DNA of 64,000 nucleotides from Croceibacterium atlanticum. GTDB taxonomy: Bacteria > Pseudomonadota > Alphaproteobacteria > Sphingomonadales > Sphingomonadaceae. Shown in pieces: positions 10,103 through 27,976 of this stretch (the first letter of the stretch is position 1; the number at the start of each line of letters is the position of its first letter). The stretch covers positions 1,984,001 through 2,048,000 of the forward strand of contig NZ_CP011452.2 of NCBI RefSeq assembly GCF_001008165.2, in the 5' to 3' direction. The translations under genes were made by a program, and so were the position numbers. Under the pieces are notes generated by a model. That model saw nothing but the letters and a program-made list of their open reading frames with translations, did not search any database and was not told the origin of the DNA.

Positions 10103-10103
10103 A

Positions 10104-10961
10104 TCAAAGCGCGCTTTCGTAAAGGGCGAGCAGGCGGCTCCACGCCTTTTCCGCCGGTTCTTCTGCGTAAACCGGGGAATCGACCACGGTCCAGCCATGA
10201 TCCCCGGCATAGACTTCGATCTCTGCCGGGCGGCCTGCTGCCTCCGCCGCTGCGCGCAAGGCATCCTTTTCGCCCGGTACGCGGGCATCGTCATTCTGGG
10301 CGATGGCGATCAGGAAGCTCGCCTGCGTGTCATCCAGAAGATTGATCGGGGCGGTATCATCATCGCCGACCAGACCTCCGCCATGGAAGCTGGCCCCCGC
10401 CTTCACGCGCGAAGGAACGGCAGCGGCGGTGCGCACCACGAAGGGGCCGCCCATGCAATATCCCTGCGTGCCGATACCGCGCGACGTATCGACCGCCTCC
10501 TGCCCATCCAGCCAGGCCACGGCAGCCTTCGCCGTTTCGGTCACCGCCTCATGCGTGTTTTCTTCACGCCAGGGGCCGACTTTCGCCATGCCGTCATTAT
10601 TGCGCCAATCCTCGAAATCTTCGAACTGTGGGGCCGGCGCGCTCTGATAATAAGGGTTGAGCACCAGAACCGAATAGCCTTCGCCCGCCAGGCGCCGGGC
10701 CATCATCTTGAAGGCATCGCGCAGCCCGGCAATATCCGGCCAGACTATGACCGCCGGATACGCCCCTTCCGCCGGATGGACGAAGAATGCGTCCATCGTG
10801 CCCAGCGGCGTGCTGAAGCTCACCATTTCTTCCGAAAGCGATCCTTCCGCCTTCGCACCATTCATCGGCGCGCAGGCGGCAAGGCCCGCAATCGCGCCAA
10901 AGGCCGTGAACTGACGACGATTGAGCCGCCCCATTCGAGCCAATTGCTGTTCGTCACACAT
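10104..10961 (-). CDS. exported dienelactone-hydrolase family protein
   Basis: A 285-residue alpha/beta hydrolase of the dienelactone hydrolase family. It has a twin-arginine-type N terminus (L-N-R-R-Q-F-T-A-F-G) and a hydrophobic stretch ending in L-A-A-C-A. A lipoprotein or Tat-exported form is likely. The nucleophile is the Cys of G-Y-C-M-G-G, with Asp in Q-N-D-D and His in A-G-D-H-G-W. The start at 10961 follows GAGGAGG; the longer frame from 11003 lacks such a site. It is coupled to the acetyltransferase gene. Confidence 0.85.
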   Translation of the reverse strand: MCDEQQLARMGRLNRRQFTAFGAIAGLAACAPMNGAKAEGSLSEEMVSFSTPLGTMDAFFVHPAEGAYPAVIVWPDIAGLRDAFKMMARRLAGEGYSVLVLNPYYQSAPAPQFEDFEDWRNNDGMAKVGPWREENTHEAVTETAKAAVAWLDGQEAVDTSRGIGTQGYCMGGPFVVRTAAAVPSRVKAGASFHGGGLVGDDDTAPINLLDDTQASFLIAIAQNDDARVPGEKDALRAAAEAAGRPAEIEVYAGDHGWTVVDSPVYAEEPAEKAWSRLLALYESAL

Positions 10962-11083
10962 GAAAGCCTCCTCGCTTCCCTTCCCGGATGACGAGGATAG
11001 CAAGGCATTTGGCCGCGTCCACTGACTCTTGGCAGCCTCCTGGCGGCGGGCACGGCCATTGCCGCGCGCGCCACCAATTCGCC

Positions 11084-12025
11084 TCAGGTCAGATCGTCAA
11101 GCTGGACCACCAGCCCTTCTTCCGCCGCCTTCATCGCATCGCGCCGCAATTGTTCGATCTTCAAACGGCCGGCGGGCGCTTCTTCATCGGGCAACGCGGC
11201 CATGATCTTTTCGTGCATCTCCTCGAAATCCGGGCCGTGTTCGGGATGGGTCAGGATCAGGCCCTTCTGTTCGGTCATGCCGGCCAGGATCTTTGTACCC
11301 ACCTCATAGGGATCCATGCCTTCTTCAAATGCCGTGCCGAACTGTTCCAGTTCCCCCTCCCGCGTCGGTGCGAAACCGCTATCCTTGAAACTGTCAGGCC
11401 GCTTGGTCGCGCTGGCCCAGGCATTGGTGCGGGTCAGCGCCGGGCAACACAGCGAACAGCCGATGCCATGCGGAGCAAGGTTGTAGCGCAGCGATTCGGT
11501 CAGCCCGCGCACGGCGAACTTGCTGGCCGTGTAGATACCCGCCTGCGGCCCCGGCAGGAAAGCCGCCATGCTGGCCACATTGACGACGTGGCGGCGCCCC
11601 TCGCTCGCCTTGATTTTCGGCAGGAAGGAAACCAGCCCGTTGACCACACCGCCGAAATTGACGCCCATGATCCAGTCGTAATCGTCATAGCTGGCCTCGT
11701 CCGTCGGACCGAAGACGGATACGCCGGCATTGTTCACCAGCACATGCACTTCGCCGAAATGGTCAACCACCTGCTGCGCCACTTCGGCGAAGCGTTCCCG
11801 GTCGGTAACATCCAGCTTCGCGAAGAGCGGCTGTTCATACCCTTTTTCGGCAAACCATTCGGCGGTGCGCGCCTTGTCGTCCTCGTTACGATAGCTGAGC
11901 GCCAGGCGCATTCCGGCATCGGCAAATGCCTGTGCCACGCCCAGTCCGATACCCGTCACCGCGCCCGTGATGAACGCCACGCGGCCTGCCCATTTGCCGT
12001 CCTGCAACCATTGTTTGTCGGCCAT
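11084..12025 (-). CDS. short-chain dehydrogenase resembling LigD/LigL C-alpha dehydrogenases
   Basis: A 313-residue classical SDR, longer than the usual 250. Cofactor motif T20-G-A-V-T-G-I-G27, N-N-A-G at 98-101, and catalytic Ser152, Tyr165, Lys169. The stretch F-G-P-T-D-E-A-S-Y-D-D-Y-D-W-I-M-G-V-N and the extended C-terminal helix resemble Sphingobium C-alpha dehydrogenases (LigD, LigL, LigN), which oxidise the benzylic alcohol of beta-aryl ether lignin dimers. It diverges from the SnoaL-like gene across a 74-bp gap holding two partial operator motifs. The LigD-type role is inference. Confidence 0.85.
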   Translation of the reverse strand: MADKQWLQDGKWAGRVAFITGAVTGIGLGVAQAFADAGMRLALSYRNEDDKARTAEWFAEKGYEQPLFAKLDVTDRERFAEVAQQVVDHFGEVHVLVNNAGVSVFGPTDEASYDDYDWIMGVNFGGVVNGLVSFLPKIKASEGRRHVVNVASMAAFLPGPQAGIYTASKFAVRGLTESLRYNLAPHGIGCSLCCPALTRTNAWASATKRPDSFKDSGFAPTREGELEQFGTAFEEGMDPYEVGTKILAGMTEQKGLILTHPEHGPDFEEMHEKIMAALPDEEAPAGRLKIEQLRRDAMKAAEEGLVVQLDDLT

Positions 12026-12099: not shown

Positions 12100-12798
12100 A
12101 TGAGTGATGTCGAAAAACGCCTTGCCGCGCTCGAAAACCGGGTTGGAGAGCTGGAGGATATCAATGCTATCCGCCGTTTGCACTGGGCCTATGGCTATTA
12201 CATCGATTTCAACCGGCCGAACGAAGTGGCGGATTTGTTTGCGGAAGATGGCGTGGTCGTCTTCCTTTCCGGCGAATATGTCGGCCATGCTGGCGTAAAA
12301 CGTCTTTACGGAGACTGGATCGCCGGACGGTTCACCGGCGGCAAACCGGGGCCTGTCAACGGATTGCTGCTGGATCACTTCCAGATGCAGGACATCATCA
12401 CCGTCGCACCGGACCGGCAGACGGCAAAGGGCCGTTTCCGTGGCCTGCTGTTCGGCGGCTGGCATGACGATTTCCTGGAAGCCAAACCCGATTTCATGCC
12501 CCAGCAATTCATGGAAGCCGGCGTTTACGAAAATGACTATGTCCGGGAAAACGGCGTCTGGAAAATCCAGCGGCTGGATTACAAGATGCAGTGGCAGGGC
12601 AATTACGAAGAAGGCTGGGCCCACACGACCAGCCATCTCCAGCCTGCCGAAAAGCTCTATCCCGAAGATCCGGTCGGCCCCGACCGGCTGCTGCCGGCAG
12701 AAGAGATTCGCAAGACCTGGCCCTATCGCCATGACGTGCCGATGCATTTCGCCCATCCCAAGTTCGGCGCCATCCTGGCCGGACAGGAACAGGGCTGA
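12100..12798 (+). CDS. SnoaL-like / NTF2-fold protein
   Basis: A 232-residue protein with an N-terminal coiled coil (about 1-22, E-K-R-L-A-A-L-E-N-R-V) followed by an SnoaL-like cone fold: I-R-R-L-H-W-A-Y-G-Y-Y-I-D near 25-37, then L-F-A-E-D-G-V-V. The family includes small dehydratases, hydroxylases and isomerases in aromatic and polyketide metabolism. A C-terminal extension of about 60 residues is unusual. Divergent from the LigD-like SDR, so possibly co-regulated with it. Specific reaction not known. An intrinsic terminator follows. Confidence 0.8.
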   Translation: MSDVEKRLAALENRVGELEDINAIRRLHWAYGYYIDFNRPNEVADLFAEDGVVVFLSGEYVGHAGVKRLYGDWIAGRFTGGKPGPVNGLLLDHFQMQDIITVAPDRQTAKGRFRGLLFGGWHDDFLEAKPDFMPQQFMEAGVYENDYVRENGVWKIQRLDYKMQWQGNYEEGWAHTTSHLQPAEKLYPEDPVGPDRLLPAEEIRKTWPYRHDVPMHFAHPKFGAILAGQEQG

Positions 12799-12890: not shown

Positions 12891-13112
12891 GCGCCGCATT
12901 GACGGGCTGGCCTGCGCCATTCGGGATTGCCCGAAAATTCGTTTACGAGTGGATCATACACTCCCACATCGTTGTTACCCGTTTGCACTAATCGCAGAAT
13001 ACTGCGGCTCCGGACCCCATATTCATCTTTCAGAAATCCGCTGGTCGCGTATGCGGCGCCCGACTTTTCAACGCCCCGCCCGAGGGCGGTGCCAACAAGG
13101 GAGACGGGTCTG

Positions 13113-15536
13113 ATGCTTCAGATTAATACGGCCAGAGTGCGACGTTCACTCGCCGGAAGTATTTCACTTTTTGCCATCTGTGCCGCCAGCCCTGCCATCG
13201 CGCAGGACCAGCCGGTACAGGAACCTCAGGCGCAGCCTGCGAACGGCGTCGAAGAAATCGTCGTGACCGCGCAGTTCCGCGAACAGAACCTGCAGGACAC
13301 GCCTCTGGCCATCACCGCAGTGTCGAGCGACATGCTCGAAGCGCGCAGCCAGACCAATGTGGCCGAAGTTGCCGCACAGGCTCCGTCCGTGTCGCTGAAG
13401 CCGCAGGGCAGCTCCTATGGCCCCTCGATCGCTGCCAGCATCCGCGGTGTCGGCCAGTATGACTTCAACCCCGCTCTCGAACCGGGCGTGGGCCTTTATA
13501 TTGACGATGTCTATTATGCTACGCTGACCGGCTCGCTGTTCGACCTGCTCGATCTCGACCGTGTCGAAATCCTCCGCGGCCCGCAGGGCACGCTGGCTGG
13601 CCGTAACTCCATCGGCGGCGCGGTGAAGCTTTATTCCAAGCGTCCGACCGGTTCCAACACCGGCTATGTTTCCGCCACTTACGGTATCCGTGATCGGCTG
13701 GACCTGCGCGCCAGCGCCGATTTCGGCCTGACCGATACGCTGTCCACCCGCATTTCCGGCGTCTCCAAGTCGCAGGACGGCTATATCAAGCGCATGGATT
13801 TCGGCTGCGTCTATCCGGCGGGCGAAAGCGATGTGAACCCCGAAGGCGGCGTGACCGCCACCCTGCCCTACAATTCGGATTGCGTTTCCGCGCGTGAGGG
13901 CGAAGTCAATTTCGAAGCGGTGCGCGGCCAGCTGCGCTGGGAACCGACCAGCCGCCTCGATATCAATATCGCTGCCGACTACACGCATGACGATCGCAAC
14001 AATGGCGGTTCGGTGCTGGTGGAACGCAGGAACGCCGCAGGCGAAATCGCCAGCCCGTATTACCCCTATCCGGCAAATCCTTCCGCGCGGGTATTCGACA
14101 TCAATCCGTACGAAGCTGACGTTCCTTATGACAGCCGCTTCGTCTGCGGGCCATATTGCAACTTCGCCAATTACGCGATGCTGGCAGATAACGGGCAGCC
14201 GGCGCTTTCCGCCAATGGCCGCACGAAGTTCGAAGGCTGGGGCGTTTCGGGCCAGGTCGATTGGGACGTGACCGATTCCCTGCAGCTGGTTTCGATCAGC
14301 GCCTACCGCGAATATCGTTCGCAGTTCACCAATGACGATGCGGCATCGCCGCTTTCGCACAGCCTGGGCATCAGCGACCTTACCTTCTGGTCGTTCAGCC
14401 AGGAAGTCCGCCTGAACGGTATCGCGCTGGACGATCGGCTGGAATACACGGTCGGCGGGTTCTACATGGACCAGCGTTCGGTCTATGGCGCGCTGCAGTC
14501 GCTGCGTTATTCCGGTCTCGATCCCTTCATCCAGGACGATCCGGTGAATGCGGACACCAAGGCCGCCTTCGCGCATGTTTCCTGGAACCCGATCGATCCG
14601 CTGACGCTGACGGCCGGCATCCGCTATACCGACGAGCACAAGGACTACACCTATGTCCGCCGCACGCTGGATGGCGGTGTGCATCCGCAGCTTGGCGCGC
14701 TGGACGGCGTGACCGGTACGTATGACCACGACCGTGTCGATTACCGCCTGAACGCGATGTATGAGATCACGCCGGAAATCTCGGTCTATGGCCAGTGGTC
14801 GACCGGATTCAAGGGCGGCGGCATCAACCCGCGTCCGTTCTTTGCGCAGCAGGTGCTGTCCTTCGATCCGGAAACGCTCGAATCCTTCGAAGTCGGCTTC
14901 AAGAGCGACCTGTTCGACCGGATGATGCGCCTCAACCTGGCGGCGTTCTACAGCAACTACAACGGCATTCAGCTGGCGCTGAACAACTGCCCGCAGGCAG
15001 GTGCCGGCTTCGCCGTTCCCTGCTCGCTGCCGTCAAATGCCGGCGACGCGCATGTGAAGGGCTTCGAGGTGGAAACGTCGCTGCGTCCGGTGGACGGCTT
15101 CGTGATCGACGGCACGGTTAGCTATGTCGATTTCGATTATGTCGCGGATTCGCTGGAACCGGCGAGCGGCATCCAGCCGGACATGGTTTCGAACTACACG
15201 CCGAAATGGAAGTGGTCGATCGGCGCGCAGTATGAAGCGCTGCTGGGTTCTGCCGGATCCATCACGCCGCGTTTCGATGCCTCTTACCAGAGCGACATCT
15301 ACACCAACGCGATCAACGGCCCGACGAACAAGATCGACGATTATATCGTCGCCAATGCTCGTCTGACCTGGAAGAACGAGGACGAAGACCTGGAGCTCGG
15401 GGTGGAAGTGACCAACCTGTTCGACAAGTACTACTTCCAGTCCCTGTTCGACCTGACGCGTGCAGGCGCCGGTTTCGTGACCGGCCTGCCGGGCCGTCCG
15501 CGCGAATGGGCGGTTACCGCGAAGAAGAAATTCTGA
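13113..15536 (+). CDS. TonB-dependent outer-membrane receptor
   Basis: An 807-residue TonB-dependent receptor. A signal peptide ends at P-A-I-A-Q-D (about 31), then comes a short Gln/Pro-rich segment, a TonB-box-like E-E-I-V-V-T-A, the plug domain (S-I-R-G-V-G, E-I-L-R-G-P-Q-G-T-L-A-G-R-N-S) and a 22-strand barrel ending in a terminal Phe as needed for BAM insertion. The ATG at 13113 follows AAGGGAG; the longer frame from 12927 lacks a site. In sphingomonads such receptors often import aromatic compounds, and the context supports a lignin-type substrate, but the ligand is unknown. Confidence 0.93.
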   Translation: MLQINTARVRRSLAGSISLFAICAASPAIAQDQPVQEPQAQPANGVEEIVVTAQFREQNLQDTPLAITAVSSDMLEARSQTNVAEVAAQAPSVSLKPQGSSYGPSIAASIRGVGQYDFNPALEPGVGLYIDDVYYATLTGSLFDLLDLDRVEILRGPQGTLAGRNSIGGAVKLYSKRPTGSNTGYVSATYGIRDRLDLRASADFGLTDTLSTRISGVSKSQDGYIKRMDFGCVYPAGESDVNPEGGVTATLPYNSDCVSAREGEVNFEAVRGQLRWEPTSRLDINIAADYTHDDRNNGGSVLVERRNAAGEIASPYYPYPANPSARVFDINPYEADVPYDSRFVCGPYCNFANYAMLADNGQPALSANGRTKFEGWGVSGQVDWDVTDSLQLVSISAYREYRSQFTNDDAASPLSHSLGISDLTFWSFSQEVRLNGIALDDRLEYTVGGFYMDQRSVYGALQSLRYSGLDPFIQDDPVNADTKAAFAHVSWNPIDPLTLTAGIRYTDEHKDYTYVRRTLDGGVHPQLGALDGVTGTYDHDRVDYRLNAMYEITPEISVYGQWSTGFKGGGINPRPFFAQQVLSFDPETLESFEVGFKSDLFDRMMRLNLAAFYSNYNGIQLALNNCPQAGAGFAVPCSLPSNAGDAHVKGFEVETSLRPVDGFVIDGTVSYVDFDYVADSLEPASGIQPDMVSNYTPKWKWSIGAQYEALLGSAGSITPRFDASYQSDIYTNAINGPTNKIDDYIVANARLTWKNEDEDLELGVEVTNLFDKYYFQSLFDLTRAGAGFVTGLPGRPREWAVTAKKKF

Positions 15537-15615: not shown

Positions 15616-16725
15616 TCAGCCCCAGACTTCTTCTGCCACTTCCACGCAGAGGCGTATCTTGTCCGCCTGCTGTTCCGTGGTCAGATCATTTCCGTGGACG
15701 GTGCTGGCAAAGCCGCATTGCGGGCTGAGGGCGAGCTGATCGAGATCGGCAAACTTGCTCGCTTCGTCGATCCGGCGCTTGATATCGTCCTTGCTTTCCA
15801 ACTGCCCCAGCTTGGTGGTGACGAGGCCGAGTACGACCGTCTTGCCCTTGGGCAGGAAACGCAGGGGCGCGAAATCGCCCGAGCGCGGATCGTCATATTC
15901 CAGGAAGAAGGCGTCAATATCCAGTTCGTTGAACATGATCTCCGCCACCGGCTCATAGCCGCCTTCGGCCGCCCATGAACTGCGGAAATTACCTCGGCAC
16001 AGATGGATCGCCTTGATCATGTCGGACGGGGCGGAACCGAAAGCATCATTGATCAGGGCCGCATATTGGCGCGGCGTTTCGTCGGGATCCATGCCCCGTG
16101 CGCGGGCATCGTCCCGGTGGCTCTCGTCGCAGAGATAGGCGAGATTGGTATCGTCCATCTGCAAATAGCGGCAACCGGCCTCCGCCAGACTATCCACTTC
16201 TGCACGGTAGGCCGCGGCGACATCGGCGTAGAATGCATCCATTTCGGGATAGACATCTTCCGGAATGCCCTGCCGGCCGGCGCGGAAATGCAGCATGGTC
16301 GGGCTGGGAATGGCGACCTTGGGTGTTTCGGTGGCGACGGAGGCCAGATATTCGTAATCGGCTTTCTGGATCGGCTTCACATGTTCGATCTTACCGGTGA
16401 CGACCATTTTCGGCGGCGCAAAATGCACATCCTTGCCGGTATCGTTCTTGAATGCCTTTTCAATACCGCCCTGTTCTTCGACACCCGATAGCTGAAGCAG
16501 GAAATCAGTATGGAAGAAGTAACGCCGGAACTCGCCATCGGTGATCGATTTGAGGCCGAGTCCTTCTTGCCATTTCACGAGTTCGGCAATCGCCTCGTCC
16601 TCGATCTGGCGCAGGGCCGCATAGTCGATATTACCTGCGGCGCGGTGTTCGCGCGCCTCCACCACGGAACGCGGTCGCAGGAATGAACCGACATGGTCGG
16701 CGCGCAAAGGCAGCTTGGTAGTCAT
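15616..16725 (-). CDS. MetE C-terminal-domain-like zinc methyltransferase (YxjG/YxjH type)
   Basis: A 369-residue stand-alone homologue of the catalytic half of cobalamin-independent methionine synthase. It has R-A-D-H-V-G-S-F-L-R-P at 8-18, I-T-D-G-E-F-R-R near 60-68, and Zn-ligand regions I-H-L-C-R-G-N and S-P-Q-C-G-F. The folate-binding N-terminal half of full MetE is missing. Family members move a methyl or alkyl group to a thiol such as homocysteine. It diverges from the PQQ dehydrogenase gene and may share its operator, so a link to methyl groups released from methoxyaromatics is plausible but unproven. Confidence 0.85.
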   Translation of the reverse strand: MTTKLPLRADHVGSFLRPRSVVEAREHRAAGNIDYAALRQIEDEAIAELVKWQEGLGLKSITDGEFRRYFFHTDFLLQLSGVEEQGGIEKAFKNDTGKDVHFAPPKMVVTGKIEHVKPIQKADYEYLASVATETPKVAIPSPTMLHFRAGRQGIPEDVYPEMDAFYADVAAAYRAEVDSLAEAGCRYLQMDDTNLAYLCDESHRDDARARGMDPDETPRQYAALINDAFGSAPSDMIKAIHLCRGNFRSSWAAEGGYEPVAEIMFNELDIDAFFLEYDDPRSGDFAPLRFLPKGKTVVLGLVTTKLGQLESKDDIKRRIDEASKFADLDQLALSPQCGFASTVHGNDLTTEQQADKIRLCVEVAEEVWG

Positions 16726-16928: not shown

Positions 16929-19049
16929 ATGAAAAAGGCGGGGTTGATACTGGCCGGCGCACTCGCGCTGGGCCTGGCTGGCTGCAACGGGGACGCGCAA
17001 GGCTCCTCCAAGGACGGGGTGACCGGCGCCCTGATCACTGCAGCGGACGGCAAGGAATGGCTGACCTATGGCCGCGATTATTCCGAACAGAGATATTCCC
17101 CGCTGACCGGGATCGGCACCGGCAATGTCGCGGATCTCGGCCTGGCCTGGTTCGCGGATCTGGACACTGCGCGCGGCCAGGAAGCGACTCCGCTGGTCAT
17201 CGACGGCAAGATCTTCACCAGCACTGCGTGGAGCAAGGTGAAAGCCTATGATGCGCGCAGCGGCGAATTGCTGTGGGATTACGATCCCGAAGTGCCCGGC
17301 GAATGGGGCGCCTATGGCTGCTGCGACGTGGTCAATCGCGGGCTGGCCGCATGGGGGGACAAATTGTTCCTCGGCACGTTCGACGGGCGGCTGGTCGCGC
17401 TTGATCGCGATACGGGCGAAGTTGCCTGGTCCAGGGAAACGACCGACAGGACCAAGCCCTATACGATCACCGGCGCACCGCGCGTCATCGATGGCAAGGT
17501 GCTGATCGGCAATGGCGGCGCCGAATATGGCGTGCGCGGATATATTACCGCCTATGACGCAAACAGCGGGGATCAGCTCTGGCGCTTCTACACCGTGCCG
17601 GGCGATCCGCAGGAAGAAGCGGCTGAGCCGGACTATCTGGCGAAGGCCCGCGAAACCTGGAATGGCGAATTCTGGAAACTGGGCGGCGGCGGCACGGTTT
17701 GGGACGCCATGGCCTATGACCCGGATCTGGACCTGCTCTATATCGGCGTGGGCAACGGATCGCCGTGGAACCAGTCCTATCGCTCTCCGGGCGGGGGCGA
17801 CAATCTCTATCTGTCATCCATCGTCGCGCTGAAGCCGGAAACCGGCGAATATGTCTGGCATTACCAGACGACGCCCGGCGAAACCTGGGACTTCACCGCC
17901 ACGCAGCATATCATGCTGGCCGATCTCGAAATGGATGGGCAGCAGCGCAAGGTGCTGATGCAGGCGCCGAAGAACGGCTATTTCTATGTCATCGACCGCG
18001 AGACGGGCGAACTGATTTCCGCCAATAATTACGTGCCGCAGAACTGGACCACCGGGATCGACATGGCCACCGGCCGCCCGATCGAAAATCCGGAGGCACG
18101 CTATGACAAGACCGGCAAGCCATTCGTTTCCATGCCGGGCGCCGGGGGCGGACATAGCTGGCACCCGATGGCCTTCAATCCGGTAGAAGGGCTGGTCTAT
18201 ATCCCGGCGATAGAGGCCGGCTTCCCCTATGTCCCGGAAAAGGACTGGAAACCGGACACGGCGCGGGGCTTCAACGTGGGCGTGGACATGGGCGCGGGGG
18301 CCATGCCGCCCGATGCCGCCATTCGCCAGGCAACCGCGGATTCCACCAAGGGCGCACTGATCGCCTGGGACCCGGTGAAACAGGAAGAACGCTGGCGCGT
18401 GCAATATCCGGGGCCGTGGAATGGCGGTTTGCTGGCGACGGCTGGCGGATTGCTGTTCCAGGGGACGGCAGCCGGCAATTTCGTCGCCTATGACGCGCAT
18501 GACGGGAAGGAATTATGGTCCTTCCCCGCGCAGACCGGGATCGTTGCCCCGCCCATCACCTATGAACTGGATGGCGAACAATATGTTGCCGTCCTTGCCG
18601 GATGGGGCGGCATCTGGACCCTGGCGCCGGGCGGCATCCTGTCCGAACGATCGGGTCCGGTGCGCAATATTTCCCGCCTGCTGGTGTTCAAGCTGGGCGC
18701 GAATGGCGAATTGCCGCCCGCCCCGCCGCTGGACCGTATGCCGCTCGACCCGCCGCCCTTCCGCGGCACGAAGGAACAGGTGACTTTGGGCGGATATAAT
18801 TACGGCCGCTATTGCGGGCAGTGCCATGGCGACGCGGCGATCGGTTCCACCGTGCTGCCCGATCTGCGGCGCAGCGCGGTGCTCGACAATGCCGACAGCT
18901 GGCAGATGATCGTCCATGACGGCGCGCTGGCGGATAACGGCATGGCCAGTTTCGCCCCCTCGATCGGCAAGGAGAAGATCGAGGCGATCCGCCAATATGT
19001 CATCTTCCGCGCGAACGAGGACAAGAAACTGGGCGGTCTGGGCAGCTAG
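16929..19049 (+). CDS. PQQ-dependent quinohemoprotein alcohol dehydrogenase
   Basis: A 706-residue type II quinohemoprotein dehydrogenase. The N terminus is a signal with a lipobox-like L-A-G-C (Cys19), suggesting membrane anchoring on the periplasmic side. An eight-bladed PQQ propeller follows, with the vicinal Cys131-Cys132 pair and G-D-x-W-type repeats (W-D-P, D-F-T-A). The C terminus is a cytochrome c domain with C-G-Q-C-H (629-633) and a probable axial Met at 672. Such enzymes oxidise primary alcohols to aldehydes and pass electrons to the respiratory chain. GGGAGGGG precedes the ATG. An ALDH follows downstream, fitting an alcohol-aldehyde-acid sequence. Confidence 0.93.
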   Translation: MKKAGLILAGALALGLAGCNGDAQGSSKDGVTGALITAADGKEWLTYGRDYSEQRYSPLTGIGTGNVADLGLAWFADLDTARGQEATPLVIDGKIFTSTAWSKVKAYDARSGELLWDYDPEVPGEWGAYGCCDVVNRGLAAWGDKLFLGTFDGRLVALDRDTGEVAWSRETTDRTKPYTITGAPRVIDGKVLIGNGGAEYGVRGYITAYDANSGDQLWRFYTVPGDPQEEAAEPDYLAKARETWNGEFWKLGGGGTVWDAMAYDPDLDLLYIGVGNGSPWNQSYRSPGGGDNLYLSSIVALKPETGEYVWHYQTTPGETWDFTATQHIMLADLEMDGQQRKVLMQAPKNGYFYVIDRETGELISANNYVPQNWTTGIDMATGRPIENPEARYDKTGKPFVSMPGAGGGHSWHPMAFNPVEGLVYIPAIEAGFPYVPEKDWKPDTARGFNVGVDMGAGAMPPDAAIRQATADSTKGALIAWDPVKQEERWRVQYPGPWNGGLLATAGGLLFQGTAAGNFVAYDAHDGKELWSFPAQTGIVAPPITYELDGEQYVAVLAGWGGIWTLAPGGILSERSGPVRNISRLLVFKLGANGELPPAPPLDRMPLDPPPFRGTKEQVTLGGYNYGRYCGQCHGDAAIGSTVLPDLRRSAVLDNADSWQMIVHDGALADNGMASFAPSIGKEKIEAIRQYVIFRANEDKKLGGLGS

Positions 19050-19073: not shown

Positions 19074-19095
19074 AATTCTAACGACCGTTAGAATT
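19074..19095. promoter_or_regulatory. perfect 22-bp palindrome, candidate operator of the ALDH operon
   Basis: AATTCTAACG and CGTTAGAATT are perfect inverted arms around a 2-bp centre, 93 bp upstream of the ALDH start. Size and symmetry suit a TetR-type dimer operator; the family is inference. It probably controls the six-gene operon 19189-25163. Confidence 0.7.
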
Positions 19096-19188
19096 TGCGT
19101 CGCATGGGCATGACGGCACGTAGGCAGCTGCCAGACCGTTTGCTAGATTGAGACACAAAGGATTCGTTTCGGGAAAGGACCTGGTCAG

Positions 19189-20703
19189 ATGAACGAAGTC
19201 ACCACCATCGATCGCACACAGCGTGAATATTCCGAGGCCGCCAAGAAGGCGCTCGCCCGCAAGCCGCAGCTCTTCATCAATGGCGAGTGGGTGGATTCCA
19301 GCGGCGACGCCACAATCGACGTGGAAGACCCGTCTTCGGGCAAGGTCATTTCCAAATTCGTCGAAGCGACGGACAAGGATATCGACCGTGCCGTTGCTGC
19401 CGCCCGTGCAGCTTTCGACGATCGCCGCTGGCGCGATATGCCGCCCGTGGCGCGCGAAAAGATCATGCACAAGATCGCCGATCTGATCGAAGCCCATGCG
19501 GATGAGCTGGCCGAACTGGAAGCGATCGACGTGGGCAAGCCCAAGGGCATGGCCGCCGTGGTGGACGTGCCCGGCGCGGCCGCCCATTTCCGTTACATGG
19601 CGGGCTGGGCCGGCAAGGCCGGCGGCGAGACGCTGCCCCCCTATTCCATGCCCGGCGGCATGATGTTCGCCTATACGCTGAAGGAACCGGTGGGCGTCTG
19701 CGCACAGATCGTGCCGTGGAACTTCCCGCTGCTGATGGCCTGCCTGAAGATCGCCCCGGCACTGGCCGCGGGCTGCACCACGATCCTCAAGCCCGCCGAA
19801 CAGACCAGCCTGACCGCCCTGCGCCTGGCCGATCTGATCAACGAGGCGGGCGTTCCCGCCGGTGTGGTCAACATCGTCACCGGCTATGGCCACACGGGCG
19901 GCGACCGGCTGGTCAAGCATCCCGATGTCGACAAGGTGGCCTTCACCGGTTCGACCGAAATCGGCAAGCTGATCAACCGCAACGCCACCGACACGCTGAA
20001 GCATGTCACGCTGGAACTGGGCGGCAAGAGCCCGGTCGTGGTCATGCCCGATGTCGATATCGCGGAAACCGCACCGGGCGTTTCCCAGGCGATCTTCTTC
20101 AATTCGGGCCAGGTCTGCGTGGCCGGTTCGCGCCTTTACGCGCATAAGAGCGTGTTCGACAAAGTGGTTGAAGGCATGGCCGAAACCGCCCCCTTCTGGG
20201 CTCCGCGCGCCTCGCTCGACCCGGAAGGCCATATGGGCCCGCTCGTTTCCAAGGAGCAGCAGGAACGCGTGCTGGGCTATATCGATGCCGGCAAGCGTGA
20301 TGGCGCCAGCGTGCTGATGGGTGGCGACAGCCCGTCCAGCGATGGCGGCTATTACGTCAACCCGACCATCCTCACCGATGTGAACCCGCAGATGAGCGTG
20401 GTTCGCGAAGAAATCTTCGGCCCGGTCGTCGTCGCCCAGCGGTTCGAGGATCTGGACGAAGTGGTGAAGGACGCCAACGACACGCAATATGGCCTGGCCG
20501 CCGGCGTGTGGACCAAGAACGCTTCCGCCGCGCACCAGATCGCCAGCAAGCTGCAGGCGGGCACGGTGTGGATCAATTGCCACGCCATGATCGACCCGGC
20601 CCTGCCCTTCGGCGGCTACAAGGAATCCGGCGTCGGCCACGAACAGGGCCGCCTGGGCCTGGAAGCTTACATGGAGACCAAGTCGGTCATCATGAAGCTG
20701 TAA
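19189..20703 (+). CDS. aldehyde dehydrogenase
   Basis: A 504-residue NAD(P)-dependent aldehyde dehydrogenase. Cys310 in N-S-G-Q-V-C is the nucleophile, Glu276 in L-E-L-G-G-K-S the general base; P-W-N-F-P and F-T-G-S-T are present. It oxidises an aldehyde to the acid and looks like the betaine/phenylacetaldehyde-type group, but the substrate is not evident. First gene of a six-gene operon, downstream of a perfect palindrome and right after the PQQ alcohol dehydrogenase, so it may take that enzyme's aldehyde product. GAAAGGA precedes the ATG. Confidence 0.92.
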   Translation: MNEVTTIDRTQREYSEAAKKALARKPQLFINGEWVDSSGDATIDVEDPSSGKVISKFVEATDKDIDRAVAAARAAFDDRRWRDMPPVAREKIMHKIADLIEAHADELAELEAIDVGKPKGMAAVVDVPGAAAHFRYMAGWAGKAGGETLPPYSMPGGMMFAYTLKEPVGVCAQIVPWNFPLLMACLKIAPALAAGCTTILKPAEQTSLTALRLADLINEAGVPAGVVNIVTGYGHTGGDRLVKHPDVDKVAFTGSTEIGKLINRNATDTLKHVTLELGGKSPVVVMPDVDIAETAPGVSQAIFFNSGQVCVAGSRLYAHKSVFDKVVEGMAETAPFWAPRASLDPEGHMGPLVSKEQQERVLGYIDAGKRDGASVLMGGDSPSSDGGYYVNPTILTDVNPQMSVVREEIFGPVVVAQRFEDLDEVVKDANDTQYGLAAGVWTKNASAAHQIASKLQAGTVWINCHAMIDPALPFGGYKESGVGHEQGRLGLEAYMETKSVIMKL

Positions 20704-20719
20704 TAAGCTGTTGCATTCA

Positions 20720-20753
20720 GGGGCCCGCTACCGGCATGGCCGGGGCGGGCCCC
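20720..20753 (+). terminator. GC-rich hairpin between ALDH and amidohydrolase
   Basis: GGGGCCCGC (20720-20728) pairs with GCGGGCCCC (20745-20753), and inner arms CCGGC/GCCGG extend the stem. Only GTTGTATT follows, so termination would be partial; it may tune expression of the downstream five genes. Confidence 0.5.
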
Positions 20754-20779
20754 GTTGTATTCAGGAGAGGAGATAATTC

Positions 20780-21652
20780 GTGCCCATCGACCTGTCGAAG
20801 ATCCGCGCCATCGACGTACACGTACATGCGGAGATCTCCTGCCACGATCCTGAAGATCCGGTCATGGGCCAGTTCTTCGACGCGGCCAGCGCCTATTTCA
20901 AGGCGCCGCGCGAACGGCCCAAAATGCCCGAGATTATAGAGCTTTACCGCGAAACGCAGATCGCGCTCTGCCTGTTCACCGTGGATGCCGAAAGCGGCAT
21001 GGGCGCCAAACGCGTGAGCAATTACGAAGTGGCCGAAATGGCCGCCAAGAATGACGATATCTGCATGGCCTTCGCCAGCATCGACCCGCACAAGGGCAAG
21101 TTCGGCGCGCGCGAGGCAGAGGATCTGATCAAGAATTACGGGGTGAAAGGCTTCAAGTTCCACCACATCGCCCAGAATTGCGATCCCGGCGACAAGATGG
21201 GTTACCCGATTTACGAGGTGATCAACGAATACAAGCTGCCTGCCATCTTCCACACCGGCCATTCCGGCATGGGCACCGGCATGCGCGGCGGCGGCGGGAT
21301 GCGCCTGAAATATGGCGAACCGATGCTGGTTGATGATGTCGCGGTGGATTTCCCCGACATGAAGATCATCCTCGCCCATCCCAGCTGGCCCTGGGTGGAT
21401 GAAAGCCTTTCCATGGCGCTGCACAAGACGAATGTTTACATCGACCTGTCCGGCTGGAGCCCGAAATACTTCCCCAAGCAGGTGATCCAGTACGCCAACA
21501 CGCAGCTGAAGCATAAGATGCTGTTCGGCAGCGACTTCCCGCTGATCCATCCGGACAAATGGATCAAGACCGCGCAGGATGTCGGCTTCCGCGAGGAAGT
21601 GATGCCCGGCATCATGAAGGACAACGCAGCCAAGCTGCTGGGCCTGACCTGA
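20780..21652 (+). CDS. amidohydrolase-family protein (ACMSD-like)
   Basis: A 290-residue metal-dependent hydrolase or decarboxylase of the amidohydrolase-2 (COG2159-like) group. Visible metal motifs are D-V-H-V-H (near 12-16), I-F-H-T-G-H in the middle, I-L-A-H-P-S-W and the C-terminal F-G-S-D-F-P. The start is GTG at 20780, with GGAGAGGAG about 9 bp upstream. Relatives include ACMS decarboxylase, resorcylate decarboxylases and LigW/LigY-type enzymes acting on lignin aromatics. Here it could hydrolyse a C-C bond or decarboxylate a ring acid; which one cannot be told. Confidence 0.85.
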   Translation: MPIDLSKIRAIDVHVHAEISCHDPEDPVMGQFFDAASAYFKAPRERPKMPEIIELYRETQIALCLFTVDAESGMGAKRVSNYEVAEMAAKNDDICMAFASIDPHKGKFGAREAEDLIKNYGVKGFKFHHIAQNCDPGDKMGYPIYEVINEYKLPAIFHTGHSGMGTGMRGGGGMRLKYGEPMLVDDVAVDFPDMKIILAHPSWPWVDESLSMALHKTNVYIDLSGWSPKYFPKQVIQYANTQLKHKMLFGSDFPLIHPDKWIKTAQDVGFREEVMPGIMKDNAAKLLGLT

Positions 21653-21680
21653 AAGACAGGCGGGGGAGGATAAGAAAAGA

Positions 21681-22427
21681 ATGGACTTCAACGGCAAGCA
21701 TATCGTCGTCACCGGCGCTTCGAGCGGGATCGGGCTGGTTTCCGCACAGATGTTCGCCGCACGCGGTGCCCGCGTTTCCATGCTCGCCCGGCGCAGGAAC
21801 GTGCTGGACGAGGCGGTTTCCGGCATCGGCGCCAATGCGGTGGGTTTTGCCACCGATGTCGGTGACAAGGCGCAGCTGGAACAGGCGCTGGACGATGCGG
21901 CGGCGCATTTCGGCCCGATAGAAGGCCTGTTCGCCAATGCCGGACTGACCGGCGGCTTTACCCCCGCCGTCTCCTTCGATCCGGACGTGTTCGAGGAAAC
22001 GATCAGGGTGAATCTCACTAGCGTTTTCTGGGCTATCCAGAAAGTGCTGCCCGCCATGATCGAAGCGAAGAAGGGGGCAATCCTCGTCACCGGCAGCATG
22101 GGCAGCAAGCGCGGCATGGCGATGAACCCGGCCTATGTCGCCTCCAAGCATGGCGTGCTGGGCCTGGCCCGCGCCATCGCGGTGGAAATGGCGCCGCATA
22201 ACATACGCTGCAATTGCATCATCCCCGGCTTCATCCGGACCGAAGCGCTGGACCGCATCCCGCCCGAACAGCAGGGCAAGATCGAAGCCCGCATCCCGCA
22301 GCGGCGCATGGGCACGAGCGAGGAGCTGGCCGAAGTCGCAGCCTTCCTGCTTTCCGACGCTGCCAGCCATGTGACCGGGCAGGACTGGGCCGTCGATGGC
22401 GGCGTGCTGGAATCGATCGAAGTCTGA
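21681..22427 (+). CDS. short-chain dehydrogenase/reductase
   Basis: A 248-residue classical SDR. T-G-A-S-S-G-I-G lies near 11-18, followed by F-A-N-A-G and the Ser/Tyr-x-x-x-Lys site (G-S-M-G, then A-Y-V-A-S-K). The C-terminal V-T-G-Q-D-W-A-V-D-G-G is typical. An Arg-rich stretch after strand 2 (A-R-R-R) hints at NADP preference. It lies third in the operon and its stop is 4 bp before the GST start, so they are tightly coupled. It may be the alcohol-oxidising partner of the LigF-like enzyme. Confidence 0.9.
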   Translation: MDFNGKHIVVTGASSGIGLVSAQMFAARGARVSMLARRRNVLDEAVSGIGANAVGFATDVGDKAQLEQALDDAAAHFGPIEGLFANAGLTGGFTPAVSFDPDVFEETIRVNLTSVFWAIQKVLPAMIEAKKGAILVTGSMGSKRGMAMNPAYVASKHGVLGLARAIAVEMAPHNIRCNCIIPGFIRTEALDRIPPEQQGKIEARIPQRRMGTSEELAEVAAFLLSDAASHVTGQDWAVDGGVLESIEV

Positions 22428-22431
22428 CCCC

Positions 22432-23211
22432 GTGGCGCTGAAATATTACCATGCGGAGCCGCTGGCGAATTCGCTAAAGTCGATGATTCCCCTGAAGGAA
22501 AAGGCGCTGGAATATGAAAGCGTCTATGTCGACCTGCACAGGTTCGAACAACATTCGGACTGGTTCGTGGCGATCAATCCGGAAGGGCAGGTTCCGGTGC
22601 TGGACCATGACGGCACGATCATCACCCACACCACGGTGATCAACGAATATCTGGAAGACGCCTTCCCCGATGCCAACCCGGCGGATGGCCCGTTGCGGCC
22701 GCGCGATCCGGCAGGCGCGGCGCGGATGCGATACTGGAACAAGTTCGTGGACGAACAGGTGATGAACCATGTCTCCATGCATGGTTGGCACCGGCTCATC
22801 CGCGTCGTCACCAAAAGCATAGAGGATGACAGGTTCGAGGAATTGATGAGCCATGTCCCCCTGCCGGACCAGCGCAAGAAATGGCGCACGGCCCGGTCCG
22901 GATTCAGCGAAGCAGACCTGGCCAATGCGATGGACAAGATCGTCTATGCGCTGGAGAAAGTGGACCGGCAGCTGGCCGAGACAGAATGGCTGACCGGCGA
23001 TGCCTACACTCTGGCGGACATCAATTTCTATTCCCATTGCGGCGTAATGGCGGACCGGATGTTCCCCGATCTGGCCGTTGACGCTACTTATCCGAACCTG
23101 GTCCGCTGGCGGGATACGATCTCCCGGCGGCCAGCCGTTCAGGCGGCGCTGACCAGCGAAGACCGGACCCAGCCCGGCCTGCGGACATGGAGCGGCGACG
23201 GACGCGAATAG
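22432..23211 (+). CDS. glutathione S-transferase resembling beta-etherase LigF
   Basis: A 259-residue GST. The N-terminal thioredoxin fold has L-A-N-S-L-K (candidate catalytic Ser14), N-P-E-G-Q-V-P-V-L with the cis-proline, and a glutathione-binding T-T-V-I-N-E-Y-L-E. The sequence F-E-Q-H-S-D-W-F and the K-W-R-x-A-R-x-G-F segment match Sphingobium LigF as I recall it. LigF cleaves beta-aryl ethers by glutathione attack. The start is GTG at 22432, 4 bp after the SDR stop; the longer frame from 22396 overlaps that gene. A LigF-type reaction is likely in kind, but substrate and stereochemistry are open. Confidence 0.85.
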   Translation: MALKYYHAEPLANSLKSMIPLKEKALEYESVYVDLHRFEQHSDWFVAINPEGQVPVLDHDGTIITHTTVINEYLEDAFPDANPADGPLRPRDPAGAARMRYWNKFVDEQVMNHVSMHGWHRLIRVVTKSIEDDRFEELMSHVPLPDQRKKWRTARSGFSEADLANAMDKIVYALEKVDRQLAETEWLTGDAYTLADINFYSHCGVMADRMFPDLAVDATYPNLVRWRDTISRRPAVQAALTSEDRTQPGLRTWSGDGRE

Positions 23212-23237
23212 AAGATAGAAAAAAGGGAGAGATTATA

Positions 23238-24245
23238 ATGCGCGCATGGATGTTGCCGGCAGGGTCGGACGGGTTCGACAAGCTCTATCAAGAGGATTTG
23301 CCGACTCCTGAGCCTGGCCCGGGCGAAGTTCTGATCCGCCTGCGCGCATGGTCTATCAACTATCGCGATTTCGCGGTCGCCGCGGGCCAGTATTTCGGCG
23401 GCGCGCTGAAAGCTCCCGCCATTCCGCTTTCGGACGGTGCCGGCGAAGTGGCCGCGATCGGTCCGGGTGTGACCGCCGTGAAGGAAGGGGACCGCGTGCA
23501 GGGATCCTTCTTCACTGACTGGGTCGAAGGCCCGCCACGCATGGGGCCCGCGCTGGGCGACGGCATGTCTCCGGGGATGCTGGCCGAATATGTTGTCCTG
23601 CCCGAACGCGCGGTGGTGCCCATGGCACAGACGCTGGATTTCGCACAGGCCGCCTGCCTTCCCTGTGCGGGCGTAACGGCCTGGAACGCTCTCTATGAAG
23701 GACCGCGTGCGCTGGTGCCGGGCATGAAGGTGCTGGTGCTGGGCACGGGCGGCGTGTCCATGCTGGCACTGCAACTGGCCCGCGCCGGCGGCTGCGAAGT
23801 CATCGCCACCTCCTCCTCCGATGAAAAGCTGGAACGGGTGCGGGCGCTCGGCGCCTCGCATACGCTCAATTACAAGACCACCGCCGATTGGGGCGCGCAT
23901 GTTGCCGGGCAATTTGGCGGAGTGGACAAGGTGGTGGAAGTCGGCGGGGCCGGCACTGCGGAACAATCCATGGCATCTTTGCGCACCTTGGGCGAAGTGG
24001 CCTTTATCGGCGTACTTTCTCCGGAAGGCGGGCCCAATCCGCGGTCCCTCATGATGACCGGGGGCTCGCTGCGCGGGATCTTCGTCGGCTCGGTCGCCAT
24101 GGCGAAGAAGCTCAATGCCGCAATCGATACCAACAGGATCGAACCGCTGATCGGTGCGCGTTTCGGCTTCGATCAGGCCAAGGACGCCTATGCCCATGCG
24201 TGGGGGCCGGAAAGTTTCGCAAAAACAGTGATCGAGCTCGACTGA
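23238..24245 (+). CDS. MDR-family alcohol dehydrogenase/quinone-type oxidoreductase
   Basis: A 335-residue medium-chain dehydrogenase/reductase. The N-terminal GroES-like domain has I-N-Y-R-D; the nucleotide-binding G-T-G-G-V-S lies near 170, followed by the usual A-T-S-S-S-D-E-K. It lacks the C-x-G-H zinc motif of classical ADHs, pointing to a zinc-independent NADPH oxidoreductase. The ATG at 23238 follows AAGGGAGAG. Fifth gene of the operon; substrate unknown. Confidence 0.88.
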   Translation: MRAWMLPAGSDGFDKLYQEDLPTPEPGPGEVLIRLRAWSINYRDFAVAAGQYFGGALKAPAIPLSDGAGEVAAIGPGVTAVKEGDRVQGSFFTDWVEGPPRMGPALGDGMSPGMLAEYVVLPERAVVPMAQTLDFAQAACLPCAGVTAWNALYEGPRALVPGMKVLVLGTGGVSMLALQLARAGGCEVIATSSSDEKLERVRALGASHTLNYKTTADWGAHVAGQFGGVDKVVEVGGAGTAEQSMASLRTLGEVAFIGVLSPEGGPNPRSLMMTGGSLRGIFVGSVAMAKKLNAAIDTNRIEPLIGARFGFDQAKDAYAHAWGPESFAKTVIELD

Positions 24246-24263
24246 GCCAGAGGAGGTACAGCC

Positions 24264-25163
24264 ATGTGGGAAGTACGCGTCTCGCCCAGCGGCGAGTTCT
24301 CTAACCATCCGTTCGAAAGCCGGCATTTTACCGCGATCCCGCTGACCAGCGCGATCGGGGCGGAAATCACCGGCATTCGCCTGCCCGACCTGTCGGAAGA
24401 AGCCTTCGAGGATTTCCGGCAGGCGCTTTATCATCACAAGATGCTGTTCCTGCGGGATCAGCATCTGGACCATGCCGAGCATGAGGCATTTGCCGCCCGG
24501 TTTGGCCCCTTCGCGGTCGATGCCTATACGCAGGGCGTGCCCGGCCACCGCGATGTTCACCCGATCGTGAAAGAGGCGGAGACGAGTTCCAAGGCCCTGT
24601 TCGGCGGCGGCTGGCACACGGACAGCCCTTTCCTGGCCGAACCGCCCAGCATCACGACACTGCGTTCAGTGGAAGTGCCGCCCTATGGCGGGGATACGGT
24701 CTGGGCCAATTGCGCGCTTGCCCTGCGCCATCTTTCCCGCGCCTATCGCGATATGCTGCGTCCGCTCCGCGTGCATATGTCGGCAGCGAATAATTACGCG
24801 ACGCAGGAAAAACTGCTGGGCAAGGCGATCAGCTTCGCCGATCCGGAACGCTATGAGGAAGGGATCAGGGGGCATTACCATCCGCTGATCCGCACCCATC
24901 CCGAAACGGGCGAGGAATCGCTTTACGTGGACGAGAATTATGCCGTCGGGATTGAGGGCATGACGAGTTTCGAAGCGAAGCCGATCCTCGATTTCCTCGT
25001 GCACCACATCACCCAGCACGGTTTCACTTGCCGCTTGCGGTGGGAACCGGGCATGGTCGCCATGTGGGACAACCGGCTGACGCTGCATCTGGGGCCCAAT
25101 GATTATGACGGGTTCCGGCGCGAAATGTACCGGACTACCTCGGCGGGGAGCGTTCCGGCCTAG
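24264..25163 (+). CDS. TauD/TfdA-family Fe(II)/2-oxoglutarate dioxygenase
   Basis: A 299-residue dioxygenase with the full facial triad: His118 and Asp120 (G-W-H-T-D-S-P-F) and His275 (T-L-H-L-G), plus the 2-oxoglutarate Arg near 285-290 (R-R-E-M-Y-R). Relatives hydroxylate taurine, 2,4-D ethers and other acids, and hydroxylation next to an ether oxygen causes cleavage. It is last in the operon with a GST of the ether-cleaving type, so the operon may attack an aryl ether in two ways. GAGGAGG precedes the ATG. Confidence 0.9.
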   Translation: MWEVRVSPSGEFSNHPFESRHFTAIPLTSAIGAEITGIRLPDLSEEAFEDFRQALYHHKMLFLRDQHLDHAEHEAFAARFGPFAVDAYTQGVPGHRDVHPIVKEAETSSKALFGGGWHTDSPFLAEPPSITTLRSVEVPPYGGDTVWANCALALRHLSRAYRDMLRPLRVHMSAANNYATQEKLLGKAISFADPERYEEGIRGHYHPLIRTHPETGEESLYVDENYAVGIEGMTSFEAKPILDFLVHHITQHGFTCRLRWEPGMVAMWDNRLTLHLGPNDYDGFRREMYRTTSAGSVPA

Positions 25164-25259: not shown

Positions 25260-25661
25260 TCAATCGGCGAAGAAGTTCAGTTCCAGCAACACATTGTTCG
25301 GATCGGCGGTGAAGATCTGGCGCAGGCCGATCGCTTCAACCAGATTGGTCTGGTAATCCGCGCCGCGCGCATCCAGCCGTTGCAGCATGTCTTCATAGCC
25401 GGTGCATTTCAGCGCGACATGATGCAGCGCGCCGGTCAACTGGCCAGGCGTCACCTCGCGATCATAGGCGCGGGGACAATCGATCGAGTTTATATGGATG
25501 ATTGCCCGATCTTCCGCATCGAACATCCAGGTGGCGTTCTGCGGAGTGAGCGGAGGGGGCGCATCGCGACGTTCCAGCTCCAGCAGATCGGCGTAGAAGT
25601 CCGCCGTCTCGTCCAGCCGGTCCGTGATGATGTTGACGTGATCGAGAGCTTCAACCTTCAT
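25260..25661 (-). CDS. VOC (glyoxalase/bleomycin-resistance/extradiol) superfamily protein
   Basis: A 133-residue single VOC unit. It begins with the typical L-D-H-V-N-I-I-T (His8) and F-Y-A-D-L-L-E-L, with later candidate metal residues H-H-V-A-L and L-L-E-L-N-F. Length fits a glyoxalase-type enzyme or a one-domain binding protein rather than a two-domain extradiol dioxygenase. It diverges from ligM across a gap with two palindromes, so it is probably co-regulated with O-demethylation. Substrate unknown. Confidence 0.85.
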   Translation of the reverse strand: MKVEALDHVNIITDRLDETADFYADLLELERRDAPPPLTPQNATWMFDAEDRAIIHINSIDCPRAYDREVTPGQLTGALHHVALKCTGYEDMLQRLDARGADYQTNLVEAIGLRQIFTADPNNVLLELNFFAD

Positions 25662-25778: not shown

Positions 25779-27179
<1,401 letters not shown>

Positions 27180-27292: not shown

Positions 27293-27976
27293 ATGGCCAA
27301 TTACGTACTCGTCCACGGCGCATGGGGCGGTGGGCACAGCTATGACCGGACGTTGGAAGACCTGACGGCCGCAGGGCACAATGTGCTGGTCTGCGCTCTT
27401 CGCGGACTGGGCATTCGCCAGTCGGAACTTCATCCGGGCATTACCCTGTCCGACCATGCGGACGATGTGTGCGAACAGATCGCGCAGGCGGGTTTCGACC
27501 GTTTCGTGCTGGTCGGCCATTCCTATGGCGGCATGGTCATCACCATGGTCGCCACTCGTCTCGGCGCGCGGATAGACGCGATCTGCTATCTCGATGCCTT
27601 CCTGCCGCTGGACGGGCAATCGGCATGGGACATCACGGGCGAGGCCGAGCATGATTGGTATATCGACAAGCAGCGCTTCACGCCGGGCCTCTTGCCGCCA
27701 ATCCGATCGATCGATTTCACGGTCGTGCCGGGAAGGGTCGGACTGCATCCGCTGCTGACCCTGCTCGAAGCTGTGCAATTCACCGGCGAAGAAGCCAAGA
27801 TTCCGCGGCGTGCCTATGTCTTCGCGTCCGGCTGGCAGCCCACGCCATTCACCCCGTTCCGTGACCGGGTGAAGCACGACCCGGCCTGGGAATATCACGA
27901 AAGCGAATCATCTCATCACGTTATGAGCGACCAACCCCAACAGGTGCTGGACATATTGCTCGGCCTCGCCTCCTGA
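27293..27976 (+). CDS. alpha/beta hydrolase (esterase, MES/hydroxynitrile-lyase-like)
   Basis: A 227-residue alpha/beta hydrolase. The oxyanion-hole H-G-A-W-G lies at 8-12, the nucleophile elbow G-H-S-Y-G-G near 77-82, and a late S-S-H-H supplies the catalytic His. Length and the L-V-H-G-A-W-G-G start resemble plant methylesterase/salicylate-esterase-like bacterial proteins. It may hydrolyse an aromatic ester, judging only from the neighbouring ligM and permease genes. It sits between the ligM terminator and the MFS gene. Confidence 0.85.
   Translation: MANYVLVHGAWGGGHSYDRTLEDLTAAGHNVLVCALRGLGIRQSELHPGITLSDHADDVCEQIAQAGFDRFVLVGHSYGGMVITMVATRLGARIDAICYLDAFLPLDGQSAWDITGEAEHDWYIDKQRFTPGLLPPIRSIDFTVVPGRVGLHPLLTLLEAVQFTGEEAKIPRRAYVFASGWQPTPFTPFRDRVKHDPAWEYHESESSHHVMSDQPQQVLDILLGLAS

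Follow-up and report, generated by a model that had tools for sequence, protein, structure and literature searches.

A six-gene run of Croceibacterium atlanticum with a LigF2/DesD-type glutathione S-transferase: probable membership in a sphingomonad cluster for lignin aromatics

The window analysed here is a stretch of 64,000 nucleotides from Croceibacterium atlanticum (contig NZ_CP011452.2, positions 1,984,001 to 2,048,000), in which six genes, among them those of a glutathione S-transferase (GST) and a TauD-type dioxygenase, run on the + strand at 19189-25163. These six genes probably (at a probability of about 0.7) form the central part of a cluster with which sphingomonads degrade lignin aromatics of the guaiacyl and syringyl types, with the GST as its LigF2/DesD enzyme. 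The assignment was drawn from the genes present, their kinship and order, and the pattern of gene exchange among related loci, and the proteins would have the activities of their counterparts Saro_2865, Saro_2869 and Saro_2861 of Novosphingobium aromaticivorans. An earlier note on this DNA had proposed a new aryl-ether (lignin dimer) pathway, which was not supported, because the cluster matches the known one of N. aromaticivorans and the relative of the GST is also DesD in syringate catabolism. The cluster and the LigF2/DesD-type GST are already known; new are the MDR-family and TauD genes in the slot that desC occupies in relatives, and the missing metF. The operon is a version of a studied pathway, and the exchange of desC and metF, together with the RdpA-like TauD, are its parts of interest.

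The run consists of six open reading frames of 504, 290, 248, 259, 335 and 299 codons, separated by gaps of 76, 28, 4, 26 and 18 bases, which Pfam assigned in this order to Aldedh, Amidohydro_2, short-chain dehydrogenase (SDR), GST, MDR-type and TauD. The six gene names, the single strand and the tight spacing (4-76 bases) given in the earlier note were confirmed in this way, the TauD-type dioxygenase included, and the spacing suggests that the genes form one operon. The frames are listed below, with G009 denoting the genome taken as N. aromaticivorans DSM 12444.

19189-20703, + strand: aldehyde dehydrogenase (ALDH), by Pfam; 76% identical to the G009 protein that corresponds in position to Saro_2869
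20780-21652, + strand, GTG start: Amidohydro_2 protein; 84% identical to its G009 counterpart; fold in common with aromatic decarboxylases
21681-22427, + strand: SDR; 55% identical to the G009 SDR that precedes desD; position as that of ldpC in N. rhizosphaerae LY (PMC12997858)
22432-23211, + strand, GTG start: LigF2/DesD-type GST, by Pfam, PDB matches and tree; 75% identical to its G009 counterpart
23238-24245, + strand: MDR-family oxidoreductase, by Pfam; fills the desC slot of many Novosphingobium loci
24264-25163, + strand: TauD/TfdA-family 2-oxoglutarate dioxygenase, by Pfam; closest solved structures RdpA-type

An alternative, longer frame for the GST, from the ATG at 22396, would overlap the SDR gene. 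A stem-loop was found at 20741-20754, between the ALDH and amidohydrolase genes; terminator-like sites in the region numbered 5, against a mean of 7.5 in shuffles, and so were not in excess. Tried as a StyD phenylacetaldehyde dehydrogenase, the ALDH scored 624 bits, below the NCBIfam equivalog cut-off of 850.

The GST was assigned using PDB matches, identities and a tree. Its best PDB match was LigF (4xt0, 1.8e-55), and the next match followed at 2.2e-17. Seven matches were found in G009, the top four 75, 43, 35 and 29% identical; by place and published identities these four appear to fit Saro_2865, Saro_2091, Saro_2873 and Saro_2872, the 75% match being located at C1:3087753. The window GST was 43-44% identical to LigF1, 34-35% to BaeA and 29% to BaeB, and the NaLigF2 counterpart was 39% identical to LigF1 and 42% to SYK-6 LigF. 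BaeA was 34-38% identical to the three LigF proteins, which is slightly over the published bound and was obtained by a different method, and BaeB of N. subterraneum gave 27-29%. The published identities are about 40% for NaLigF2 to other LigFs, less than 36% for BaeA to LigF homologues, and less than 30% for BaeB (PMC6369299).

The tree was built from 89 GSTs, including the window GST, 80 orthologues (the best 80 of 104 relatives) and the Saro_2865 counterpart, and these were split with 98/95 support from LigF1, BaeA and the third LigF-like GST of the C. atlanticum genome. An active-site Asn-Ser pair was kept in 82/82 members of the LigF2 subclade, the window GST included. The enzyme had been called LigF-like in the earlier note, which had allowed for a position outside the beta-etherases; the name was right, and the tree placed the GST inside a beta-etherase group, the LigF2 subclade, apart from LigF1 and BaeA. 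It resembles the LigF1-type beta-etherases (SYK-6 LigF, Saro_2091) in LigF kinship, the Asn-Ser pair and 44% identity, but differs from them in its separate subclade, and a LigF1 is encoded elsewhere in the genome.

Two functions have been described for Saro_2865, which is the beta-etherase NaLigF2, with activity in vitro (PMC6369299), and whose product was also proposed as part of a DesCD isomerase (PMC8612281). Inactivation of desD led to loss of growth on syringic acid and to accumulation of CHMOD, the methyl-ester ring-cleavage product of 3-O-methylgallate, and purified DesCD yielded oxalomesaconate (OMA) (PMC8612281). Demethylation was attributed to DesC and cis-trans isomerisation to DesD (PMC6888825); elsewhere the two reactions are called predicted and desD not essential (PMC12314914).

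The surrounding genes were compared with those of G009, which was the sole genome of 195 in the genus with an exact copy of the published Saro_2861 (ligM) primer and was taken as N. aromaticivorans from this copy and the identities. Of the 80 orthologous loci, 67 were counted at fixed thresholds, and 13 with less than 4.5 kb after the GST were left out. The recurring order, with gains and losses, was BaeA, BaeB, (CoA ligase), pyrroloquinoline quinone (PQQ) enzyme, ALDH, amidohydrolase, SDR and GST, with VOC, LigM, (MetF) and alpha/beta hydrolase (ABH) further on. LigM followed the GST on the same strand within 9.8 kb at 61/67 loci, and amidohydrolase matches of more than 240 residues were found at 74 places in 81 stretches. 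The Saro_2860-2873 region of N. aromaticivorans DSM 12444 holds metF, ligM, desC, desD/NaLigF2, the ALDH, the PQQ enzyme and baeBA. The window is like it in the order PQQ-ALDH-amidohydrolase-SDR-GST ... LigM ... ABH, at 55-84% identity on G009, but at these places desC, metF, baeAB and the CoA-ligase-like gene are missing from it, and it carries MDR, TauD and MetE-like genes. The neighbouring members are as follows.

12927-15536: TonB receptor frame, upstream of the PQQ gene
15616-16725, - strand: MetE-like methyltransferase; NF005085, 447 bits (cut-off 313)
16929-19049, + strand: PQQ-dependent alcohol dehydrogenase with a cytochrome c domain; TIGR03075, 647 bits (cut-off 480); 56% identical on G009
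25260-25661, - strand: VOC/glyoxalase-like protein, by Pfam; frequent cluster neighbour; 76% identical on G009
25779-27179, + strand: LigM-type vanillate/3-O-methylgallate O-demethylase; NF047885, 864.2 bits (cut-off 580); 77% identical to G009 LigM
27293-27976, + strand: ABH, possible DesC stand-in; 39% identical to DesC over 112 residues; 65% identical on G009

In the C. atlanticum genome DesA scored 819 bits (cut-off 800), and four RPE65-family genes are candidate lignostilbene dioxygenases. Saro_2869 extract converted DC-L to DC-C in vitro, and the enzymes that the passages of the same paper name as active on DC-A do not include Saro_2870, which had been assayed as a PQQ enzyme (PMC11323797). 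In Altererythrobacter on lignin, des and lig genes were expressed and GST beta-etherases were named among the routes (PMC8027834).

In the proposed pathway, the PQQ dehydrogenase and the ALDH would oxidise side-chain alcohols and aldehydes, and LigM would remove methyl groups from vanillate and 3-O-methylgallate. The GST would use glutathione on CHMOD en route to oxalomesaconate, with beta(S)-aryl ether cleavage as a likely second activity. The MDR and TauD genes occupy the place of the relatives' desC in this lineage, and the MetE-like gene may replace metF as the methyl-group outlet.

The exchange was seen in the gene content after the GST. The 67 loci comprised 19 with desC alone, 18 with MDR and TauD and no desC (the type of the window cluster), 16 with none of the three, 7 with desC and TauD, 5 with desC and MDR, 2 with MDR alone, and 0 with all three. 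A desC partner, present in 31/67 loci and lacking in the window, is typical of LigF2/DesD GSTs and not defining. Among loci with at least 9 kb, MetF was found downstream in 0/16 of the MDR-TauD type, compared with 30/31 of those with desC. At set thresholds the MetE-like gene was present at 15/18 MDR-TauD loci and at 1/62 others, some of the 62 having little upstream sequence; pieces of it at contig ends add one locus (L016) to the MDR-TauD group and one (L083) to the other. Fisher values for the pattern were 9.9e-7 and 1.1e-11, with loci treated as independent, which they are not. No MetF match was found in the window, to which that search was limited. With metF absent downstream and the MetE-like gene tracking the MDR-TauD type, the pattern suggests that the methyl outlet differs in this type, and our guess from gene content is that the methyl groups which LigM removes end up in methionine here and do not return via MetF. 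That TauD or MDR simply takes over from DesC was rejected as a general rule on account of the loci in which desC accompanies TauD (7/67) or MDR (5/67). The ABH at 27293 may perform the ester cleavage of DesC. If the MDR-TauD pair, or this neighbouring hydrolase, does carry out the DesC step, the cluster would represent another solution to syringate catabolism.

The following observations weigh against the assignment to the lignin-aromatics cluster with a LigF2/DesD enzyme. In the tree, the split put BaeB together with the LigF2 group; its branch is very long, of a kind about which the tree program warns, and its placement is therefore unsure. A published primer for desA was not matched exactly anywhere in G009, although the primer may alter the start codon. 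No DesC counterpart was found in the C. atlanticum genome, the only two hits being 38 and 39% identical over 111-112 residues and the second of them being the ABH at 27293, and therefore the DesCD reaction cannot proceed here in exactly the published form.

Upstream of the run the window holds a further pair of genes that bear on dimer cleavage.

11084-12025, - strand: C-alpha dehydrogenase/LdpB-type SDR, in divergent orientation to the LdpA-like gene; best match 3ioy, then C-alpha dehydrogenases
12100-12798, + strand: LdpA-like (SnoaL fold) protein; 70% identical to the G009 protein at 3.03 Mb

We take LdpA, a gamma-formaldehyde lyase acting on beta-1 dimers, to be of the SnoaL kind and PDB entries 8abt-8abw to be LdpA. 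The G009 protein at 3.03 Mb lies where ldpA (SARO_RS14230) is expected, and the LdpA-like protein is 43% identical to a paralogue at 0.85 Mb, where PcfL is expected (locus tags as in Table 1 of PMC12997858); the published identity between PcfL and LdpA is 44% (PMC11323797). The SDR is divergent from the LdpA-like gene in the window and at two other loci (L029, L082), with SDR pieces 74-91% identical. The earlier note had called this SDR LigD-like; its C-alpha dehydrogenase kinship held, but an LdpB-type role would fit as well as a LigD-type one, because the gene adjoins that of an LdpA-like beta-1 lyase. The LdpA-like gene and the divergent SDR are like the LdpA/LdpB beta-1 dimer pathway, but no such SDR was present within the 3.7 kb examined at the G009 counterpart, and only proximity links the pair to the six genes.

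Cleavage of beta-O-4 dimers could instead be the main job of the operon, with the GST acting in vivo as a beta(S)-etherase that is fed by the SDR at 11084. This is unlikely, although baeA-baeB stand in the same cluster in G009 and at many loci and C-alpha dehydrogenases follow 3ioy among the matches of the SDR. A separate LigF1 is encoded in the genome, 69% identical to SYK-6 LigF (C1:519040; L086, 9486-10286); BaeA and BaeB did not match any distinct locus of the window; the window GST is the only GST_N_3 match in the window, out of 12 in the genome, glutathione lyases not having been searched by name; and its counterpart has the DesD role. Around the LigF1 gene (19.5 kb, cluster query set) no second match was found.

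The remaining alternatives turn on the TauD dioxygenase. Its best solved relatives were RdpA-type (R)-phenoxypropionate dioxygenases and engineered forms, at 184.9 to 180.1 bits, and two entries labelled as taurine dioxygenases scored 177.0 (5hsx) and 175.4 (5keu); 3pvj and 1gqw scored 154.6 and 146.2. Residues H118, D120, H275, R286 and R290 were invariant in 28/28 aligned sequences (the window and 27 of 30 orthologues found), and from TauD numbering we take them to be the likely Fe, 2-oxoglutarate and anion-binding residues. The protein is thus like RdpA in its closest solved relatives and in these residues, but the RdpA entries lead the taurine-dioxygenase-labelled ones by little, and a likeness in substrate is putative. 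The predicted model had a mean pLDDT of 68, with values below 50 at 88-120 and 276-299, and was too weak for pocket reading or fold search. An oxidative ether-cleaving step by TauD is possible, its link to ether cleavage being family resemblance alone. If TauD does cleave aryl ethers, an oxygen-dependent bacterial route to lignin ethers would stand beside the glutathione route.

It is speculative, and we consider it improbable, that Erythrobacteraceae-type sphingomonads have rebuilt the lignin cluster with an MDR-TauD pair and a MetE-like outlet for desC and metF, that TauD thereby opens an oxidative route, either cleaving an aryl ether in beta-O-4 dimers oxidised at the gamma position or releasing as formaldehyde the methyl group of CHMOD or a methoxy acid, and that a second GST/TfdA-like pair in the genome takes part in the same chemistry. 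A LigF-like GST, a C-alpha dehydrogenase-like SDR and a divergent TfdA-family dioxygenase were found side by side about 65 kb before the window (L087, C1:1909501-1929000, at 9205-11829), with PDB matches of 2.9e-51 for the GST (4xt0), 1.2e-60 for the SDR (4yae), and 3e-45 (5j92) and 3.9e-39 (5bke) for the dioxygenase. This locus would be a better candidate than the six-gene run for combined ether cleavage by a GST and a dioxygenase. The next frames there are TonB-like, then VOC and FAD monooxygenase (the latter two labelled by eye).

Very improbable is an oxidative ether route within the run itself, in which beta-O-4 dimers would be oxidised at their gamma alcohol by the PQQ enzyme and the ALDH to give acids of the 2-aryloxypropanoate type, the RdpA-like TauD would hydroxylate these so that the ether splits, and the GST would take the other stereoisomers. 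The (R)-phenoxypropionate dioxygenases as best solved relatives, the invariance of the likely metal, 2-oxoglutarate and anion-binding residues, and the adjoining genes for alcohol and aldehyde oxidation are consistent with it. Against this, the margin of RdpA over 5hsx and 5keu is small, the invariant residues are common to the whole superfamily, TauD is absent from 42/67 LigF2 clusters and has relatives of only 33% identity in G009, and the model does not permit a judgement of the pocket. Least credible is service to another aromatic, with the TauD/MDR pair and the amidohydrolase acting on a substrate not yet linked to lignin, as might be read from the uncharacterised 3irs as sole solved sequence relative of the amidohydrolase and from GST relatives of 33% identity on a plasmid of Aminobacter sp. 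MSH1, since LigM, the LdpA-like gene and the conserved cluster indicate lignin aromatics.

On that plasmid (NZ_CP028966.1), from a strain of dichlobenil-treated soil, the window GST matched at five places with at most 33% identity; relatives of the window GST need not all be etherases. Plasmid carriage was rejected, every plasmid match to the GST (263 records) and to TauD (436) being below 60% identity. In a partial literature search for a TauD in such a cluster, the word occurred in none of one set of 10 papers and in three of another set of 17 (PMC6167471, PMC5443232 and PMC3877037), and the terms desD, LdpC and TauD are absent from PMC12607616.

Ahead of the ALDH gene, the perfect palindrome reported in the earlier note was recovered.

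19074-19095, no strand: perfect palindrome AATTCTAACG-AC-CGTTAGAATT, with 10-bp arms and an AC centre; possible operator of the ALDH-led genes

It lies 93 bases before the ALDH start. Inverted repeats with 10-bp arms and centres of 0-4 bases were counted in the window and in 10 Markov resamplings, which gave 3 separate places (5 nested hits) in the window and 4 hits in total over the resamplings; the two other places in the window are GC-rich. A palindrome as good as this one is seldom met, yet by itself it could still be due to chance. One other site was found in the genome (L119, 7538-7553; C1:1265.5 kb), with 3 mismatches but with the 16-bp core and its AC centre unchanged. It lies upstream of a TonB receptor, 42% identical to that of the window, whose presumed start is 87 bases away, and the palindrome may be an operator for a regulator with two targets. 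A frame near the second site looks by eye like a sulfatase. Upstream of the ALDH in 15 orthologous loci, one similar palindrome (L006) and one GC hairpin (L013) were found, and none at the set limits in the other 13; the core CTAACGNNCGTTAG was present in 1/84 loci. By both counts, the palindrome is not a feature that the cluster keeps across loci. The inverted repeats published for the DesR operator are GTTTGTGTCACATAC and GTTTGTGTAACATAC (PMC6888825), and identification as a DesR operator was rejected for dissimilarity.

The amidohydrolase was compared by sequence and by fold, and was aligned with 24 of the 74 places. The PDB sequence search gave a single relative, the uncharacterised 3irs. 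The predicted model (pLDDT 82.7) matched 3irs at Z 26.1, then other uncharacterised amidohydrolases, and aromatic decarboxylases at Z about 21 (12-22% identity); that the protein is an aromatic decarboxylase is a fair guess from the model and no more. LigI and LigJ were not supported as identities by sequence, the search having yielded 3irs alone. A LigJ structure ranked 49 among the 50 that Foldseek listed, and probable or putative PDC hydrolases ranked 26-27 in the VIA list, under several decarboxylases. A frame that looks LigI-like by eye (L088, 18820-19704) ends just inside the window start and had an NCBIfam match to 4-sulfomuconolactone hydrolase below the cut-off.

Further genes of the window were noted. 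An MFS transporter gene lies downstream of the ABH gene at 27293, and a CmcJ/NvfI family oxidoreductase at 8260-9069 (251 bits, cut-off 80) adjoins an aldo/keto reductase.

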